A stretch of 64,000 nucleotides of DNA from Bacteroidia bacterium (GTDB lineage: Bacteria > Bacteroidota > Bacteroidia > SpSt-205): positions 211,425 to 275,424 of the forward strand of contig JANXCX010000024.1 in the NCBI GenBank assembly GCA_025059535.1, read 5' to 3'. Below, piece after piece: positions 3 through 6,607 of this stretch (its first letter is position 1; each line of letters starts with the position of its first letter). Under the pieces are notes generated by a model. The model saw only the letters and a program-made list of their open reading frames with translations, did not search any database and was not told where the DNA came from. A program made the position numbers and the translations under genes.

Positions 3-1052
3 GTGGGATTTTCTTTAGAGGAGGTGCGATTTTGGGAGCATTTTATTCACTTAGTATTGGATAGTATGATGGTTCAATCGGCGGAGGTGGATTTTCCGTC
101 GGTTTTTGGGATACGGCGCATGGCCGTGCGCGGGATTCCCGAACCCGGTCCCGAAGGCGAGGTGGAGACGGCAGTGATCCTTCTGCAGGATATTACCGAG
201 CTTCGGCACGCCCAAGAGCAGCTACGGCTACAAAATGAGCGCCTAGAGCAGGCTCGGCGCGCCTTAGAAAGCCAAAAGAAAGAGCTGGAGGAGAAGAACC
301 GGGATATTATGGAGAGCATTAGCTATGCGCGGCGCATTCAAGGAGCGCTTTTACCCGGCGAAGCAGGCCTACGCCAGCTTTTTCCGGATAGCTTCCTTCT
401 ACACTGGTTGCGGGACGTAGTGGGAGGTGATTTCTACTGGTATGGGGAAGTGAAGGAGCAGAAGGTAGTAGCGGTAGTAGATTGTACGGGGCATGGAGTG
501 CCTGGCGCTTTTATGACCTTTCTGGGCTATACGCTCTTAGAAGCGGCTATCCGAGAACGCCAGCTTTTAGACCCCGCGCAAATCTTAGGCTTCATGGATA
601 GGCGGCTGCGGGAACTTCTGGCAGGGCAAGAAACAATGCAGGATGGGATGGATGTGGCGTTATGCGTAGTGGATACGCAGCGGCGGGTATTGCGGTTTGC
701 GGGGGCGCATCGGCCGCTCTTACTTTATCGCGAAGGGCGATGGCAGCTCCTCCCGGGCGCGCCAACGGGCTTAGGCGGCGCAACTTGGCTGGATAGCGTG
801 AAAGCTTTCCATACCCATACGCTCACCTTTGAAAAAGGCGATCAGCTCTACCTTTATACCGACGGCTATTTAGACCAATTCAGTGCGGATGGGCAGCGGC
901 GCTACTCGCACCGACGCTTCCGAAATTTCCTTATGACCTGGGGCCATCTGCCTATGGAAGAGCAGCACAGGCTCCTCTTGGAAGAACTGCGTCAGTGGAT
1001 GGGGAATACCCACCCCACGGATGATATTACGGTAATCGGTTTGCGTTTGTGA
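3..1052 (+). CDS. PAS/PAC-coiled-coil-SpoIIE protein phosphatase (5' partial)
   Basis: Probable PP2C-type serine/threonine phosphatase, the SiaA/RsbU-like member of a partner-switch. The reading frame is open to the left edge, so the true start and N-terminal sensor are probably outside the window; a GTG at 3 is only nominal. Visible parts are the end of a PAS/PAC domain (to about residue 68), a coiled coil (about 70-105) and a SpoIIE phosphatase domain to the end. Metal-binding aspartates appear in GGDFYW, DCTGHGVPGAF, YLYTDGYLDQF and the C-terminal PTDDITVIGL. It lies 24 bp upstream of a SiaB-type kinase gene on the same strand, so it is the likely phosphatase for the SiaC proteins downstream. 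That pairing is inferred from context and from the Pseudomonas SiaA/B/C system. Confidence 0.85.
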   Translation: MGFSLEEVRFWEHFIHLVLDSMMVQSAEVDFPSVFGIRRMAVRGIPEPGPEGEVETAVILLQDITELRHAQEQLRLQNERLEQARRALESQKKELEEKNRDIMESISYARRIQGALLPGEAGLRQLFPDSFLLHWLRDVVGGDFYWYGEVKEQKVVAVVDCTGHGVPGAFMTFLGYTLLEAAIRERQLLDPAQILGFMDRRLRELLAGQETMQDGMDVALCVVDTQRRVLRFAGAHRPLLLYREGRWQLLPGAPTGLGGATWLDSVKAFHTHTLTFEKGDQLYLYTDGYLDQFSADGQRRYSHRRFRNFLMTWGHLPMEEQHRLLLEELRQWMGNTHPTDDITVIGLRL

Positions 1053-1060
1053 GAGTTTGG

Positions 1061-1068
1061 TATATTTG
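1061..1068 (+). promoter_or_regulatory. Bacteroidota -7 box TATATTTG, siaB-like gene 1
   Basis: Perfect TAnnTTTG. It ends 8 bases before the ATG at 1077, so the mRNA leader should be only a few bases. No convincing -33 element was seen. Confidence 0.6.
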
Positions 1069-1076
1069 CACTGGGT

Positions 1077-1652
1077 ATGGTAGCTTCCGCCTCTGAGGTT
1101 GCGCCTTCGGCTGCGCTCTTCCACGCCTATCCCCTGTATCGGAACATGCTGGATAACAGCATTGTCTTTATGTATTACGGTCCTATTACCCCCGACCTTA
1201 TCGTGGATATCCTCAACCTCATAGACTATCGGCTTTCCGGGAGTGGCGAAGAGAAACGGATAAGTAAGAAGTTATTCAATATCATGGTTGAATCTCTTTC
1301 GCTAGGTGAAGATGTAAATAGGGGTCATTCGACGCTGCTGGTGCGCCAGTTACCTTATCTTTACACGGTAAGTATTGGCCGACGCATCAATGCGGCGGCC
1401 GTCTATGAGCTCAAGACCTTTATAGACTGGGTAAATATGCTCTCACCCGAGGATTTACGTGAGGCCTACCACCAGCTTCTTCAGCCTCCTACCTCCGCTG
1501 GGCTTCCCACCTCGGTGGCGGATGTACCCTCTATAAGTATCCTAGACCTAGCCCGCAAGTCCAGTGAATATCTAGACTACCTTTTTGAGTATCTAGATGA
1601 AAATGATGCCTTCTTCTCACTAGAAGCGCGAATAAGAAAAAATCATTCATAG
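1077..1652 (+). CDS. SiaB-family protein, degenerate (predicted pseudokinase)
   Basis: Paralogue of the SiaB-type kinase at 2045. Shared landmarks are an N-terminal Y(Y/R)(K/R)NM segment, an acidic SGSGEEKR / EGEGEDRK loop followed by K-F/V-FN-MVE, ARKS near residue 159, and the C-terminal FFSLEAR. SiaB proteins are GHKL-fold kinases. This copy lacks the ATP-binding features. The N-box ExxxN of the sister protein (E59...N63) here reads E72-S-L-S-L76, so the Asn is gone. The glycine-rich G-box (GTAGLGMIDIARKS in the sister) is replaced by SVADVPSISILDLARKS. The protein is 191 aa and uncut, so it is probably a retained regulator rather than debris. A -7 box lies 8 bases upstream; the next gene starts 3 bases after the stop. 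Confidence 0.75.
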   Translation: MVASASEVAPSAALFHAYPLYRNMLDNSIVFMYYGPITPDLIVDILNLIDYRLSGSGEEKRISKKLFNIMVESLSLGEDVNRGHSTLLVRQLPYLYTVSIGRRINAAAVYELKTFIDWVNMLSPEDLREAYHQLLQPPTSAGLPTSVADVPSISILDLARKSSEYLDYLFEYLDENDAFFSLEARIRKNHS

Positions 1653-1655
1653 CCT

Positions 1656-2039
1656 ATGGAGGCCTTGCGGATAGAATCCACACACAAAACCCCGCGGGTC
1701 ATTTTAGACCCAGAGAATGGTATATTTGAGTTTTCGGGGCGCAGCATTCCCGAAGATTCGGTGGGATTTTATGCGCCTATTTTTGAGTGGTTTGACCAGT
1801 ACGCTAAAAATCCCCTGCCCGTTACCCATGTGCGCTTTGATCTTGAATACTTCAACACCAGTAGCTCTAAGAACATCTTAGAGCTTCTCAAGCGGCTAGA
1901 AGCAATCCATGCGGCGGGGCACGAGGTGCGCGTGACATGGTACTATGACGAAGATGATGAAGATATGGAAGAGACAGGCCAGGATTATCAAGCCCTTCTC
2001 AATCTACCCATAGAACTTTCCGTAAAAATCCAATCCTGA
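1656..2039 (+). CDS. SiaC-family regulatory phosphoprotein (DUF1987), copy 1
   Basis: A 127-aa SiaC-like protein. In Pseudomonas, SiaC is phosphorylated by SiaB on Thr68, dephosphorylated by SiaA, and when unphosphorylated activates the diguanylate cyclase SiaD. The hallmark LEYFNTSSSK is present, and its threonine is also residue 68. The N-terminal region (KTPRVILDPE, FSGRSIPED) is conserved with copy 2 at 2626. The C-terminus carries an acidic stretch and ETGQDYQALL, also shared with copy 2. It lies between the two SiaB-type genes, 3 and 5 bases from its neighbours, so co-transcription is very likely. No diguanylate cyclase is visible in the window, so the output partner is unknown. Confidence 0.85.
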   Translation: MEALRIESTHKTPRVILDPENGIFEFSGRSIPEDSVGFYAPIFEWFDQYAKNPLPVTHVRFDLEYFNTSSSKNILELLKRLEAIHAAGHEVRVTWYYDEDDEDMEETGQDYQALLNLPIELSVKIQS

Positions 2040-2044
2040 AGCCT

Positions 2045-2608
2045 ATGAGCATGACATACAGCTACTATAAGAACATGCAGTTGAACAACATCATCTTCGT
2101 ATATCAGGGAGAGGTTACGGCGGATTTAGTATCGTCTATCCTGCAAATGGTAGAGAATAAGCTGGAAGGTGAGGGCGAAGACCGCAAGGTCAAGAAGCGG
2201 GTATTCAACGTAATGGTTGAGTGTTTGCAGAATGTTTATCACCACTTAGACGCTCTTCCACCTACGGATGCCTCCAGCTCGGTGCGCGACAAGACAGCCC
2301 TTCTAATGATTGGACGGGAAGAGCGGGATTACTATATCATCACGGGTAATCATGTGCTAAACGATCGGATTCCCGATCTTAAGGCACGCTTGGACCGCAT
2401 CAATCGCGCAACGAAGGAAGAACTCAAGCAGCTATACCAAGAGATTCTTACAGGTACGGGCTTCAGCGAAAAGGGCACCGCCGGGTTAGGTATGATTGAC
2501 ATCGCGCGTAAGTCTGGTCAGAAACTGGGATACGATTTTCATCCAGTAAATGATAAGTATTCGTTCTTTAGCCTGGAGGCGCGGGTCTCGCGTATCCCTG
2601 AGAAGTAG
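2045..2608 (+). CDS. SiaB-family protein kinase (intact ATP site)
   Basis: A 187-aa GHKL-like kinase of the SiaB family, predicted to phosphorylate SiaC. The N-box VECLQNVYHH carries E59 and N63, and the G-box GTAGLGMIDIARKSG (about 144-158) is intact. These are the motifs missing from the paralogue at 1077. It sits between two siaC-like genes: the start is 5 bases after siaC copy 1, and its stop is 17 bases before siaC copy 2, which has its own -7 box. It may be the only active kinase for both SiaC proteins. Assignment to the family is firm; substrate choice is inference. Confidence 0.85.
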   Translation: MSMTYSYYKNMQLNNIIFVYQGEVTADLVSSILQMVENKLEGEGEDRKVKKRVFNVMVECLQNVYHHLDALPPTDASSSVRDKTALLMIGREERDYYIITGNHVLNDRIPDLKARLDRINRATKEELKQLYQEILTGTGFSEKGTAGLGMIDIARKSGQKLGYDFHPVNDKYSFFSLEARVSRIPEK

Positions 2609-2609
2609 A

Positions 2610-2617
2610 TAACTTTG
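2610..2617 (+). promoter_or_regulatory. -7 box TAACTTTG, siaC-like copy 2
   Basis: Perfect TAnnTTTG lying one base after the stop codon of the kinase gene and ending 8 bases before the ATG at 2626. It would allow SiaC copy 2 and the following membrane protein to be made independently of the kinases. Confidence 0.5.
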
Positions 2618-2625
2618 CGCCATCC

Positions 2626-3000
2626 ATGCGAAATCTCGTCATAGAGCCTACCTCTAAAACCCCGAAGGTTATCCTAAATGCCGACTTAGGGGTATTTGAG
2701 ATCACAGGACGCAGCATTCCCGAGGATGCGATTGGATTTTATCGGCGGGTACTGGACTGGATAGAGGAATACAGCAAAAGTCCTCTTACTGAGACGGTAT
2801 TCAAGTTCCAACTTGAATACTTCAATACCAGCTCCTCTAAATGCCTGCTGGATATTTTTCGCAAGTTGGAGCGGATGCACAAAAATGGGCATAAGGTGGT
2901 CATTCGCTGGCATTACGATGCGGACGACGAAGACATGGCCGAGACAGGTCAGGACTACCAGGCGCTCTTAGATGTGCCTTTTGAACTGGTGCCTGTATGA
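2626..3000 (+). CDS. SiaC-family regulatory phosphoprotein (DUF1987), copy 2
   Basis: A 124-aa paralogue of the SiaC-like protein at 1656. The phosphosite motif LEYFNTSSSK is conserved with Thr68 at the same number as in copy 1. TSKTPKVILN, FEITGRSIPED and the C-terminal AETGQDYQALLDVPFEL also match copy 1, so the pair arose by duplication. The sequences have clearly diverged outside these blocks, so this is not a recent copy. The stop overlaps the ATG of the next gene (ATGA), which couples it to the coiled-coil membrane protein at 2997. Confidence 0.85.
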   Translation: MRNLVIEPTSKTPKVILNADLGVFEITGRSIPEDAIGFYRRVLDWIEEYSKSPLTETVFKFQLEYFNTSSSKCLLDIFRKLERMHKNGHKVVIRWHYDADDEDMAETGQDYQALLDVPFELVPV

Positions 3001-3476: not shown

Positions 3477-3484
3477 TACATTTG
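3477..3484 (+). promoter_or_regulatory. -7 box TACATTTG, coiled-coil paralogue 2
   Basis: Perfect TAnnTTTG ending 7 bases before the ATG at 3492, in a 33-bp intergenic gap. Confidence 0.55.
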
Positions 3485-3971: not shown

Positions 3972-4570
3972 ATGGTATCTGCGGCGTGGGTGTGGCTCAC
4001 TCTATTCGGCCTCCCAGATAGTAGTCGGCCTGGGGTGTGGCGATGGATAAGTACGGAGGTACAGGCTAATAAAATTTGCGGCCGCATTTCGGTTAAAACG
4101 ATAGAGTGGCCAGCCTTTGTAATTCTTCAGGAGAGCGTTGCCGTAGAAACCTGGCGCGAGGTGCGACGCGTTTTTATTGACCGCTGGACTCTACCCAAAG
4201 AGTATAGCCTTTGCTGGAATGGCGGCCAAATCGGCAAGAAGGTACGCTTCGTTATTACCCTCTCTACGAGACCGAAGCCTTCCTACTTTGTGCTTTGGGA
4301 GGGTTATCCATGGGGGCGCATACCTTTGCCACCTGTTATCCATTTTAGGGAAACTAAGCCCCCCGCTCTCCACTTAGACTTCCCAGATCCAGGCCAGTAT
4401 GTGATGCGCTGCTATAACCGCTTTGGGGAAGAGGTTTTTACTATTCCCTTTGACCTTACGCATCCGACCCAGTTTGATTACATGCTTCCCCCCCAAATGC
4501 GGGGAAATTACCTCATACAGGTGTATAGCTTAGAGCTTAAGCGTGTCGTAGCCGAAAAGGGGATTAGATT

Positions 4571-4574
<4 letters not shown>
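3972..4574 (+). CDS. Secreted protein, possible type IX sorting domain
   Basis: A 200-aa protein I do not recognise. The N-terminus (MVSAAWVWLTLFGLPDS) resembles a short signal peptide. The last 65-70 residues look like a type IX secretion C-terminal domain: a beta-rich PGQYVMRCYNRFGEEVFTIPF, then PPQMRGNYLIQVYS, ending VVAEKGIRL. That is the usual YNxxGxxV...GxYxxxV...K pattern. The middle (about 40-130) has alternating beta-like strands. The ATG lies 3 bases after the coiled-coil gene, and its stop overlaps the next ATG by four bases, so it is in the same transcription unit. The sorting-domain call is by pattern only and needs a profile search. Confidence 0.5.
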
Positions 4575-5446: not shown

Positions 5447-6062
5447 TCCGTACCAGGAAAATACTTACCTGCTTATAGGTTCAGGCGGGCGGGGATGGGT
5501 AATTGATCCAGGTTTTTATACGCTAGAGGAGCGGCAGGCCTTTCAGACTATTCTCTCAGAGGAGAAAGTACAGCTTGAGGGCGTATATCTAACGCATGCC
5601 CATATTGACCACATTTTAGGCGTGGCTTGGGTAGCGGCTACGTATGGGGTGCCGGTTTTCTACCATAGGGCAGAAGAGGTGGTCTATCGGCATGCGGCCG
5701 AATGGGCCAGTTATGTAGGTCTGAGGTACGAAGCCGGCCCCGCACCCCAGCGCTACTTGGAAGCAGGGGAGCGGCTTTTATTAGATGGCGAGCCGATTGA
5801 AGTGCTGTATGTGCCGGGCCATTCGCCTGGTCATGTGGCCTTCTATCTCCCTGACTCCAAATGGGTAATCTCAGGGGATGTACTGTTTCGGGGCAGTATC
5901 GGGAATTACGAGCTACCTTTGGCGGACTACGCCACGCTGATGCGTTCGCTTAGGGAAGTGATGCTGCAGCTGGAGCCCGAGACCGTGGTGTGGCCGGGTC
6001 ATGGGGATTCCACCACGATCGGCTACGAGCGCCAGACGAACCCCTTCTTAGTACCTGCATGA
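5421..6062 (+). CDS. MBL-fold metallo-hydrolase, glyoxalase II-like
   Basis: A 213-aa metallo-beta-lactamase-fold hydrolase. Zinc ligands are in THAHIDH (H59, H61, D63, H64), PGHSPGHVAFY, SGDVLF and the C-terminal WPGHGDSTTIGYERQTNPFL. This layout is typical of the hydroxyacylglutathione-hydrolase-like YcbL group of Bacteroidota, whose substrates are mostly unproven thioesters. The ATG at 5421 lies inside the 3' end of the dehydrogenase gene. The next gene starts with ATGA over its stop, so the two are coupled. Confidence 0.85.
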
Positions 6063-6607
6063 AGTATCAGGTGGAGGAGCTTGAGGAGGGGGTAGTGTTT
6101 CGCCCTATGGAGGAGGTCCTGAGCGCCGCGCATACCCCTCAGCTTAAGGCACGGTTTACCCTCCTAGCGCACAGTCATACGGGGGGCGTGGTAATAGACC
6201 TGTCTCAAGTTCGGACGCTGGATAGCTCCGTCCTTAGTGCGCTTCTCCTCTTGCGGCGCATTTTAGGGGAAAGCGGCCGGCCTCTAGCGATCGTAGCCCC
6301 TACTCCAGCCGTTCAGCATATATTTGCCCTTGCCAAACTCAACGAAATCTTCACGCTTATGCCAACAATAGAAGAAGCCTTAGCGTACCTGCAGAAGCAG
6401 GTAGACTTGACAGCTAAACGCGCTGAGGAAGAAGAAATGATGGAAGAGGAAGAATTAGAAGAAGACTGGGAGGAAGAGGAGCTGGAGGACTGGGAGGAGG
6501 AGGATTGGGAAGAAGAAGAAGAATGGGATGAGGAGGATTGGGAGGAAGACTGGGAGGACATTGAGGAGGAGGAGTGGGAGAGTGAAGAAGAGGAGGAAGA
6601 AGGCTAA
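6059..6607 (+). CDS. STAS-domain anti-anti-sigma-like protein with acidic Trp-rich tail
   Basis: A 182-aa protein. Residues 1-115 form a STAS domain like SpoIIAA/RsbV, with the expected phosphorylation motif LDSSVLSA (Ser56/Ser57) after the IDLSQVRTLDSS strand. From about residue 122 to the end it becomes almost pure Glu/Asp with seven evenly scattered Trp (DW or EW units). I chose ATG 6059 because it overlaps the previous stop (ATGA) and begins exactly at the domain; a longer frame from 5990 would add unrelated residues. It lies 6 bases before the RNase Z gene. STAS genes beside RNase Z are familiar to me in Bacteroidota, but the tail is unusual. Its kinase and phosphatase partners may include the SpoIIE proteins of this window. 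Confidence 0.8.
   Translation: MKYQVEELEEGVVFRPMEEVLSAAHTPQLKARFTLLAHSHTGGVVIDLSQVRTLDSSVLSALLLLRRILGESGRPLAIVAPTPAVQHIFALAKLNEIFTLMPTIEEALAYLQKQVDLTAKRAEEEEMMEEEELEEDWEEEELEDWEEEDWEEEEEWDEEDWEEDWEDIEEEEWESEEEEEEG
6424..6606 (+). repeat. Polypurine low-complexity tract coding the acidic tail
   Basis: About 180 bases that are almost only G and A on the plus strand, built from variants of gaggaag and gactgggag. The strong strand asymmetry follows from Glu, Asp and Trp codons and could favour slippage or triplex formation. Confidence 0.7.

Follow-up and report, generated by a model that had tools for sequence, protein, structure and literature searches.

SiaB1, the first of two SiaB-family proteins encoded in a doubled SiaB-SiaC module of a Bacteroidia bacterium, is probably a non-catalytic subunit in a cyclase-free, branched SiaABC partner switch. 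This judgement is drawn from sequence comparison and applies to the claim as a whole; the formation of a heterodimer is not part of it. The module lies at one end of the window, i.e., the stretch of 64,000 nucleotides that was analysed, in a genome of 1.9 Mb that is 98% complete. The related genomes Bacteroidia bacterium KatS3mg025/026 and SKYB/SKW are presumably of hot-spring origin. An earlier note on this DNA had proposed that an inactive first kinase could tether SiaC1, compete with SiaB2 or sense a ligand, which would give a two-channel switch. The idea is partly supported, as the pair is conserved in 18 genomes and the ATP site of SiaB1 is degraded. The motifs make a strong case for an inactive SiaB1 in the source genus only.

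Table 1 Features of the module and its surroundings (positions in the window)
Feature	Position	Strand	Remarks
SiaA-like phosphatase, C-terminal part	3..1052	+	End of second PAS, coiled coil, SpoIIE/PP2C domain
TAnnTTTG, Bacteroidetes -7 promoter-like element, before SiaB1	1061..1068	+	SiaA-SiaB1 gap, 11/11 genomes
SiaB1, SiaB-family protein, degenerate ATP site, 191 aa	1077..1652	+	DUF6272 6.1e-13; SiaB family 9.2e-21
SiaC1, phosphoprotein, YFNTSS (Thr68), 127 aa	1656..2039	+	PF09345 7.9e-42
SiaB2, SiaB-family kinase, intact ATP site, 187 aa	2045..2608	+	NCBIfam NF038262 172 bits, cutoff 85
TAnnTTTG, promoter-like element, before SiaC2	2610..2617	+	SiaB2-SiaC2 gap, 11/11 genomes
SiaC2, phosphoprotein, YFNTSS, 124 aa	2626..3000	+	PF09345 6.4e-43
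CC1, coiled coil, one C-terminal TM segment	2997..3458	+	153 residues; CC2 paralogue, in 11/11 genomes
TAnnTTTG, promoter-like element, before CC2	3477..3484	+	CC1-CC2 gap, 10/11 genomes
CC2, coiled coil, one C-terminal TM segment	3492..3968	+	158 residues; SiaD-like SiaC-docking motif LTRIADRNQRRL

ORF calls together with Pfam and NCBIfam matches bore out the gene order and coordinates given before: SiaA-type phosphatase, SiaB1, SiaC1, SiaB2 and SiaC2 at positions 3-3000. The interval 1077-3000 singled out in the earlier note contains the genes as described and covers only part of a larger operon, since the 907-aa SiaA starts upstream of the window and CC1 overlaps SiaC2. CheR, CheB and a PEBP protein precede the start of SiaA on the same strand. 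The full siaA gene (L004:6329-9052) starts about 1.67 kb before the window, and its product carries two predicted TM segments, a weak GAF match, two PAS domains and a SpoIIE domain. Over the last 272 aa, it matches Pfam SpoIIE (2.5e-26) and NCBIfam SiaA (1.2e-59). SiaC2 is followed by the membrane-anchored coiled coils CC1 and CC2. From SiaA to a 3-hydroxyacyl-CoA dehydrogenase, nine genes stand in identical order in each of the 11 genomes sampled from the genus, and the SiaC2 stop overlaps the CC1 start by 4 bp in each of them. Between CC2 and the dehydrogenase, positions 3972-4574 encode a 200-aa protein with about 35-43% identity within the genus, for which no family was matched in Pfam or NCBIfam. 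Further on, the ORF list holds a reading frame (5990-6607) with a STAS-like-looking start and a long acidic tail rich in Glu, Asp and Trp.

The family assignments are well above chance. The Pfam scores were 142 and 146 bits for SiaC1 and SiaC2 (DUF1987 profile, cutoff 24.5) and 49 and 144 bits for SiaB1 and SiaB2 (DUF6272, cutoff 26.6), which excludes chance matches. SiaB1 scored 74.2 bits in NCBIfam NF038262, below the cutoff of 85. Structure prediction and alignment with characterised SiaB, as the earlier note had suggested, gave the SiaB fold for both proteins and a loss of ATP-site motifs in SiaB1. The best PDB match of the SiaB1 AlphaFold model is the SiaB-SiaC complex 6KKO (E 1.2e-9, TM 0.58-0.60), and SiaB2 likewise matches 6KKO best (TM 0.67-0.76). 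The pLDDT of the two SiaB models is modest (77 and 75); the G-box loop is of low confidence in the SiaB2 model, and SiaB1 is better ordered at this place. According to the models, the SiaB fold is retained in SiaB1.

The ATP site of SiaB2 agrees with the earlier description, with E59 and N63 (ECLQN) and GTAGLGM kept, and it also has the GN motif. In SiaB1, the N-box keeps Glu (E72) and lacks Asn in 11/11 genomes of the genus. The Asn had been reported as replaced by Leu76. Its absence was confirmed, but Leu76 depends on the alignment: the N-box reads ESLS and is then interrupted by a deletion of about 13 residues, which begins at the Asn site and takes out the Asn and the end of the N-box helix. 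The GN motif has become GR in the genus. The loss of all G-box glycines holds for the source genome, where the box reads ADVPSIS and the equivalents of G147 and G149 are both Ser, but the first glycine(s) survive in most other members of the genus, as (G)GVPSIS. The predicted catalytic Glu of Pseudomonas SiaB is E61 (PMC7647112), and its equivalent E72 is invariant in all genomes of the genus. SiaB1 also retains the SiaB-wide residues DxARKS and FFSLEA and has gained a genus-invariant stretch, RQLPY.

A survey of relatives showed that the degenerate copy is not confined to the genus. Among 395 genomes sampled across the class, seven more, from five other families, have SiaB matches about 1 kb apart, all in the order SiaB1-SiaC1-SiaB2-SiaC2. 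The tandem set thus comprises 18 genomes of six families, 11 of them from the source genus, and the earlier concern that close relatives might lack the degenerate copy does not apply. SiaB2 keeps ECLQN and GTAGLG in all 18 genomes, and the glycine-rich box GxxGLG is altered in every SiaB1. The degree of change differs: the box reads GLSSLG in family f49, GLTxLG in f65 and f67, GLTNLA in f71 and NLTKLG in f76, where the N-box Asn is also replaced by Gly. In f49, f65 and f67, SiaB1 still has the Asn and two of the three glycines, so ATP binding is possible there. Across the 18 genomes, the site is most degraded in the source genus.

SiaB1 is present in all genomes with a SiaB2-type protein, and the SiaB2 profile separates these 18 genomes (at least 343 bits) from all others (at most 237 bits). 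One branch of the tree, with a support of 100/100, separates SiaB1 (18 rows) from SiaB2 (12 rows used), and SiaC1 and SiaC2 are also split, with weaker support (96/57). The clean split of the SiaB proteins suggests one old duplication. The simplest reading of these sequences would be a single duplication of a SiaB-SiaC unit, after which the first ATP site was eroded to different degrees. The idea that one site is dead wherever SiaB is doubled was rejected as a general rule. Of about 54 SiaB domains inspected outside the lineage, including many encoded in tandem or fused genes, just two do not keep the Asn and both glycines, namely the second SiaB of a tandem (G017) and the first domain of a fusion (G058). 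Two-domain SiaB fusions, in which both ATP sites are almost always kept, are common in Bacteroidia (L112-L126); the degenerate first domain of G058 belongs to L123. The tandem of G017 (L131, G017:C67) is an independent SiaB-SiaC-SiaB-SiaC arrangement with a degenerate second SiaB, and a pattern search did not find the NTS motif in its SiaC proteins. Another arrangement, L045 (G012:C310), has a single SiaB followed by three consecutive SiaC genes.

Both SiaC proteins carry YFNTSS, as previously noted, and NTSS occurs in 36/36 tandem SiaC copies. SiaC1 is 90-94% identical within the genus, and its Thr68 is kept in 18/18 genomes. In Pseudomonas, SiaC with the single exchange T68A still worked (PMC8457831). 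The retention of Thr68 in spite of this suggests that SiaC1 may still be phosphorylated. SiaB2 is the sole intact SiaB in the operon; a third intact SiaB is encoded elsewhere in the source genome.

A candidate output lies directly downstream. GGDEF domains were found in 0/11 genomes of the genus and in 8/14 control genomes, which indicates that SiaD is absent from the sampled genus. The stalk of Pseudomonas SiaD contains R80 I81 S82 D83 R84 Y85 Q86, of which R80, I81, D83, R84 and Q86 make contacts (PMC8457831). In CC2, R59 I60 A61 D62 R63 N64 Q65 are invariant in 11 genomes and equal SiaD R80-Q86 at five of seven positions, including all five contacts. CC2 also aligns in register with the stalk KISDRMQ of Azospirillum SiaD. 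The docking motif of CC1 has diverged (LTHQATQLEAKL), and this different sequence is conserved within the genus; the hydropathy of CC1 peaks at 2.84 (aa 115). The coiled coil is doubled in the source genus; f65, f67, f71 and f76 have a single one with [SA]D[KR] at the motif site. Docking of SiaC on CC2 may be inferred from this short motif within a coiled coil.

The spacing of the genes suggests how they might be expressed. SiaB1, SiaC1 and SiaB2 are separated by gaps of at most 9 bp and follow one conserved promoter-like element in the 11 genomes. TAnnTTTG is mildly enriched over the whole window (42 vs 29.5 expected), and its placement suggests three putative units, i.e., SiaB1-SiaC1-SiaB2, SiaC2-CC1, and CC2 onward. 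The pairing of SiaC, of SiaB and, in the source genus, of the docking coiled coil makes a two-branch switch plausible. In the proposed mechanism, SiaA would dephosphorylate SiaC and SiaB2 would phosphorylate both SiaC proteins. Unphosphorylated SiaC would dock on the coiled coils, like Pseudomonas SiaC on the SiaD stalk. SiaB1 would dimerise with SiaB2 and bind SiaC1, and the phosphorylation of SiaC1 by SiaB2 would thereby be gated separately from that of SiaC2. Such a switch would be two-branched, independent of c-di-GMP and perhaps methylation-tuned.

Several other explanations have to be weighed against this mechanism. A duplicate decaying without function would fit the lost catalytic motifs and the faster evolution of SiaB1 (median pairwise identity 0.68 vs 0.95 for SiaB2; identity to the source copy within the genus 59-67% vs 91-95%). 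Nevertheless, the SiaB1 ORF is intact in 18/18 genomes, including 11/11 of the genus, 67 residues are invariant across the genus, and a conserved promoter-like element stands at its start. Its dN/dS does not exceed about 0.1 in the comparisons that allowed an estimate of dS, which is saturated in the others. Because of this conservation and dN/dS, decay was rejected as very improbable. The coiled coils could also be unrelated neighbours, with the SiaC targets elsewhere, as the motif is short and lies within a coiled coil. Searches of the PDB with phmmer and profiles did not find SiaD for CC2, so that its kinship with SiaD is based on the motif register and a weak match to the NCBIfam SiaD family (0.0058). 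However, a coiled-coil gene follows SiaC2 in 16/18 tandem loci. The motif pattern matches once in the 45,881 residues of the window ORFs, in CC2, and six of its eight matches in related loci (170,161 residues) are in coiled-coil proteins. On the Azospirillum plasmid pAB510c, a histidine kinase and a cyclase lie next after siaABC, and each of the two begins with the stalk KISDR[LM]Q. Unrelated neighbours are thus unlikely.

The mode of action of SiaB1 is a further matter, for which only rough weights were assigned. The role of a heterodimer subunit is the leading candidate, at somewhat less than an even chance. Pseudomonas SiaB forms dimers (PMC7278518), and in Mycobacterium smegmatis, RsbW3, for which no kinase activity on RsfB was detected, interacts with RsbW1; a heterodimer was assumed by the authors (PMC7693655). 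A stand-alone role is possible and carries less weight: SiaB1 would bind unphosphorylated SiaC1 without ATP, as a rival of the coiled coil (or of SiaB2). SiaB1 and SiaC1 are adjacent in 11/11 genomes, and the retained fold, the kept SiaB-wide residues and RQLPY would suit a holder. On the other hand, nothing points to SiaC1 over SiaB2 as the partner of SiaB1, and the phosphosite kept in SiaC1 would be needless for a pure holder. All other modes together are given a slightly lower weight again. Among them, SiaB1 might still act as a kinase that uses its nucleotide in an unusual way, or it might bind another ligand and serve as a ligand-gated sensor subunit. Pseudokinases sometimes retain activity, the predicted catalytic Glu is invariant and the changes are milder in the other families; however, the Asn, the GN motif and the G-box have all changed in the source genus and the N-box helix is shortened, which makes this quite unlikely. 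The retention of E72 throughout, the possible ATP binding in f49, f65 and f67, the modest confidence of the models, and the third intact SiaB, which could phosphorylate SiaC1, also count against the main reading.

At the head of the operon, CheR and CheB (L004:4429-5840) occupy the stretch between about 3.6 and 2.2 kb before the window start. Both domains keep their conserved motifs. CheB consists of the methylesterase domain only, without a receiver domain, and S16, H43 and D136, which we take to be its catalytic triad, are invariant in seven copies. CheR-CheB is found directly upstream in 8/10 named loci of the genus, and the contig ends first in the other two; the pair adjoins the tandem in f71 and f65 and is unlinked in f49, f67 and f76. 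Each of the 11 genomes of the genus encodes one CheR, and MCP (PF00015) and CheW (PF01584) were found in 0/11 of them, with positive controls. One tandem genome (G347) has MCP matches. CheR of this type (at least 400 bits) occurs in 19/395 genomes, namely all 18 with the tandem plus G011, which belongs to a sister genus and is 66% complete. Common descent may account for some of this co-occurrence. In SiaA, CC1 and CC2, no classical MCP methylation consensus was found, and SiaA has one loose site. Compared by eye, CheR also lies within a few kb of SiaB in several other Bacteroidia (e.g. G026:C8, G027:C50, G038:C38, G053:C54, G167:C163, G226:C70, G256:C12). More tentatively than the other steps of the mechanism, the CheR/CheB pair might set the gain of the SiaA/coiled-coil assembly via glutamate methylation. 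The wider proposal is speculative and less likely than not: CheR and CheB, without chemoreceptors, would methylate either the sensor SiaA or the coiled coils at the membrane and so tune the gain of a two-branch SiaABC with a dedicated SiaB pseudokinase and a scaffolding or mechanical membrane output instead of c-di-GMP.

The module resembles known systems in part. It shares the SiaA, SiaB2 and SiaC families with Pseudomonas aeruginosa SiaABCD (SiaA phosphatase, SiaB kinase, SiaC, SiaD cyclase; PDB 6KKO, 7E6G), as well as the Thr68 phosphosite, and the putative docking motif of CC2 resembles that of SiaD. In contrast, SiaB and SiaC are doubled here, the ATP site of SiaB1 is lost, CheR/CheB lies within the operon, the GGDEF protein is absent from the sampled genus and the TM-anchored coiled coils are the putative output. 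M. smegmatis RsbW1/RsbW2/RsbW3 is similar in having several GHKL switch proteins, of which only RsbW2 showed detectable kinase activity on RsfB and one is proposed to act by heterodimer (PMC7693655); it differs in using RsbW instead of SiaB, in its sigma-factor output and in its unlinked genes. With chemosensory methylation systems, the operon has in common the CheR and CheB domains and their conserved motifs, but here MCP and CheW are absent in 11 genomes, CheB has no receiver and SiaABC is in the operon. In the open-access papers searched, neither a conserved SiaB pseudokinase nor a SiaABC system outside the control of c-di-GMP was found described.

The SiaB1 series, which runs from nearly intact to fully degenerate, provides a natural graded set for testing the role of a dead switch kinase. 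The module also gives a concrete prediction of what SiaC-family proteins may regulate where diguanylate cyclases are absent, and it raises the question of which proteins CheR and CheB target in organisms without chemoreceptors.
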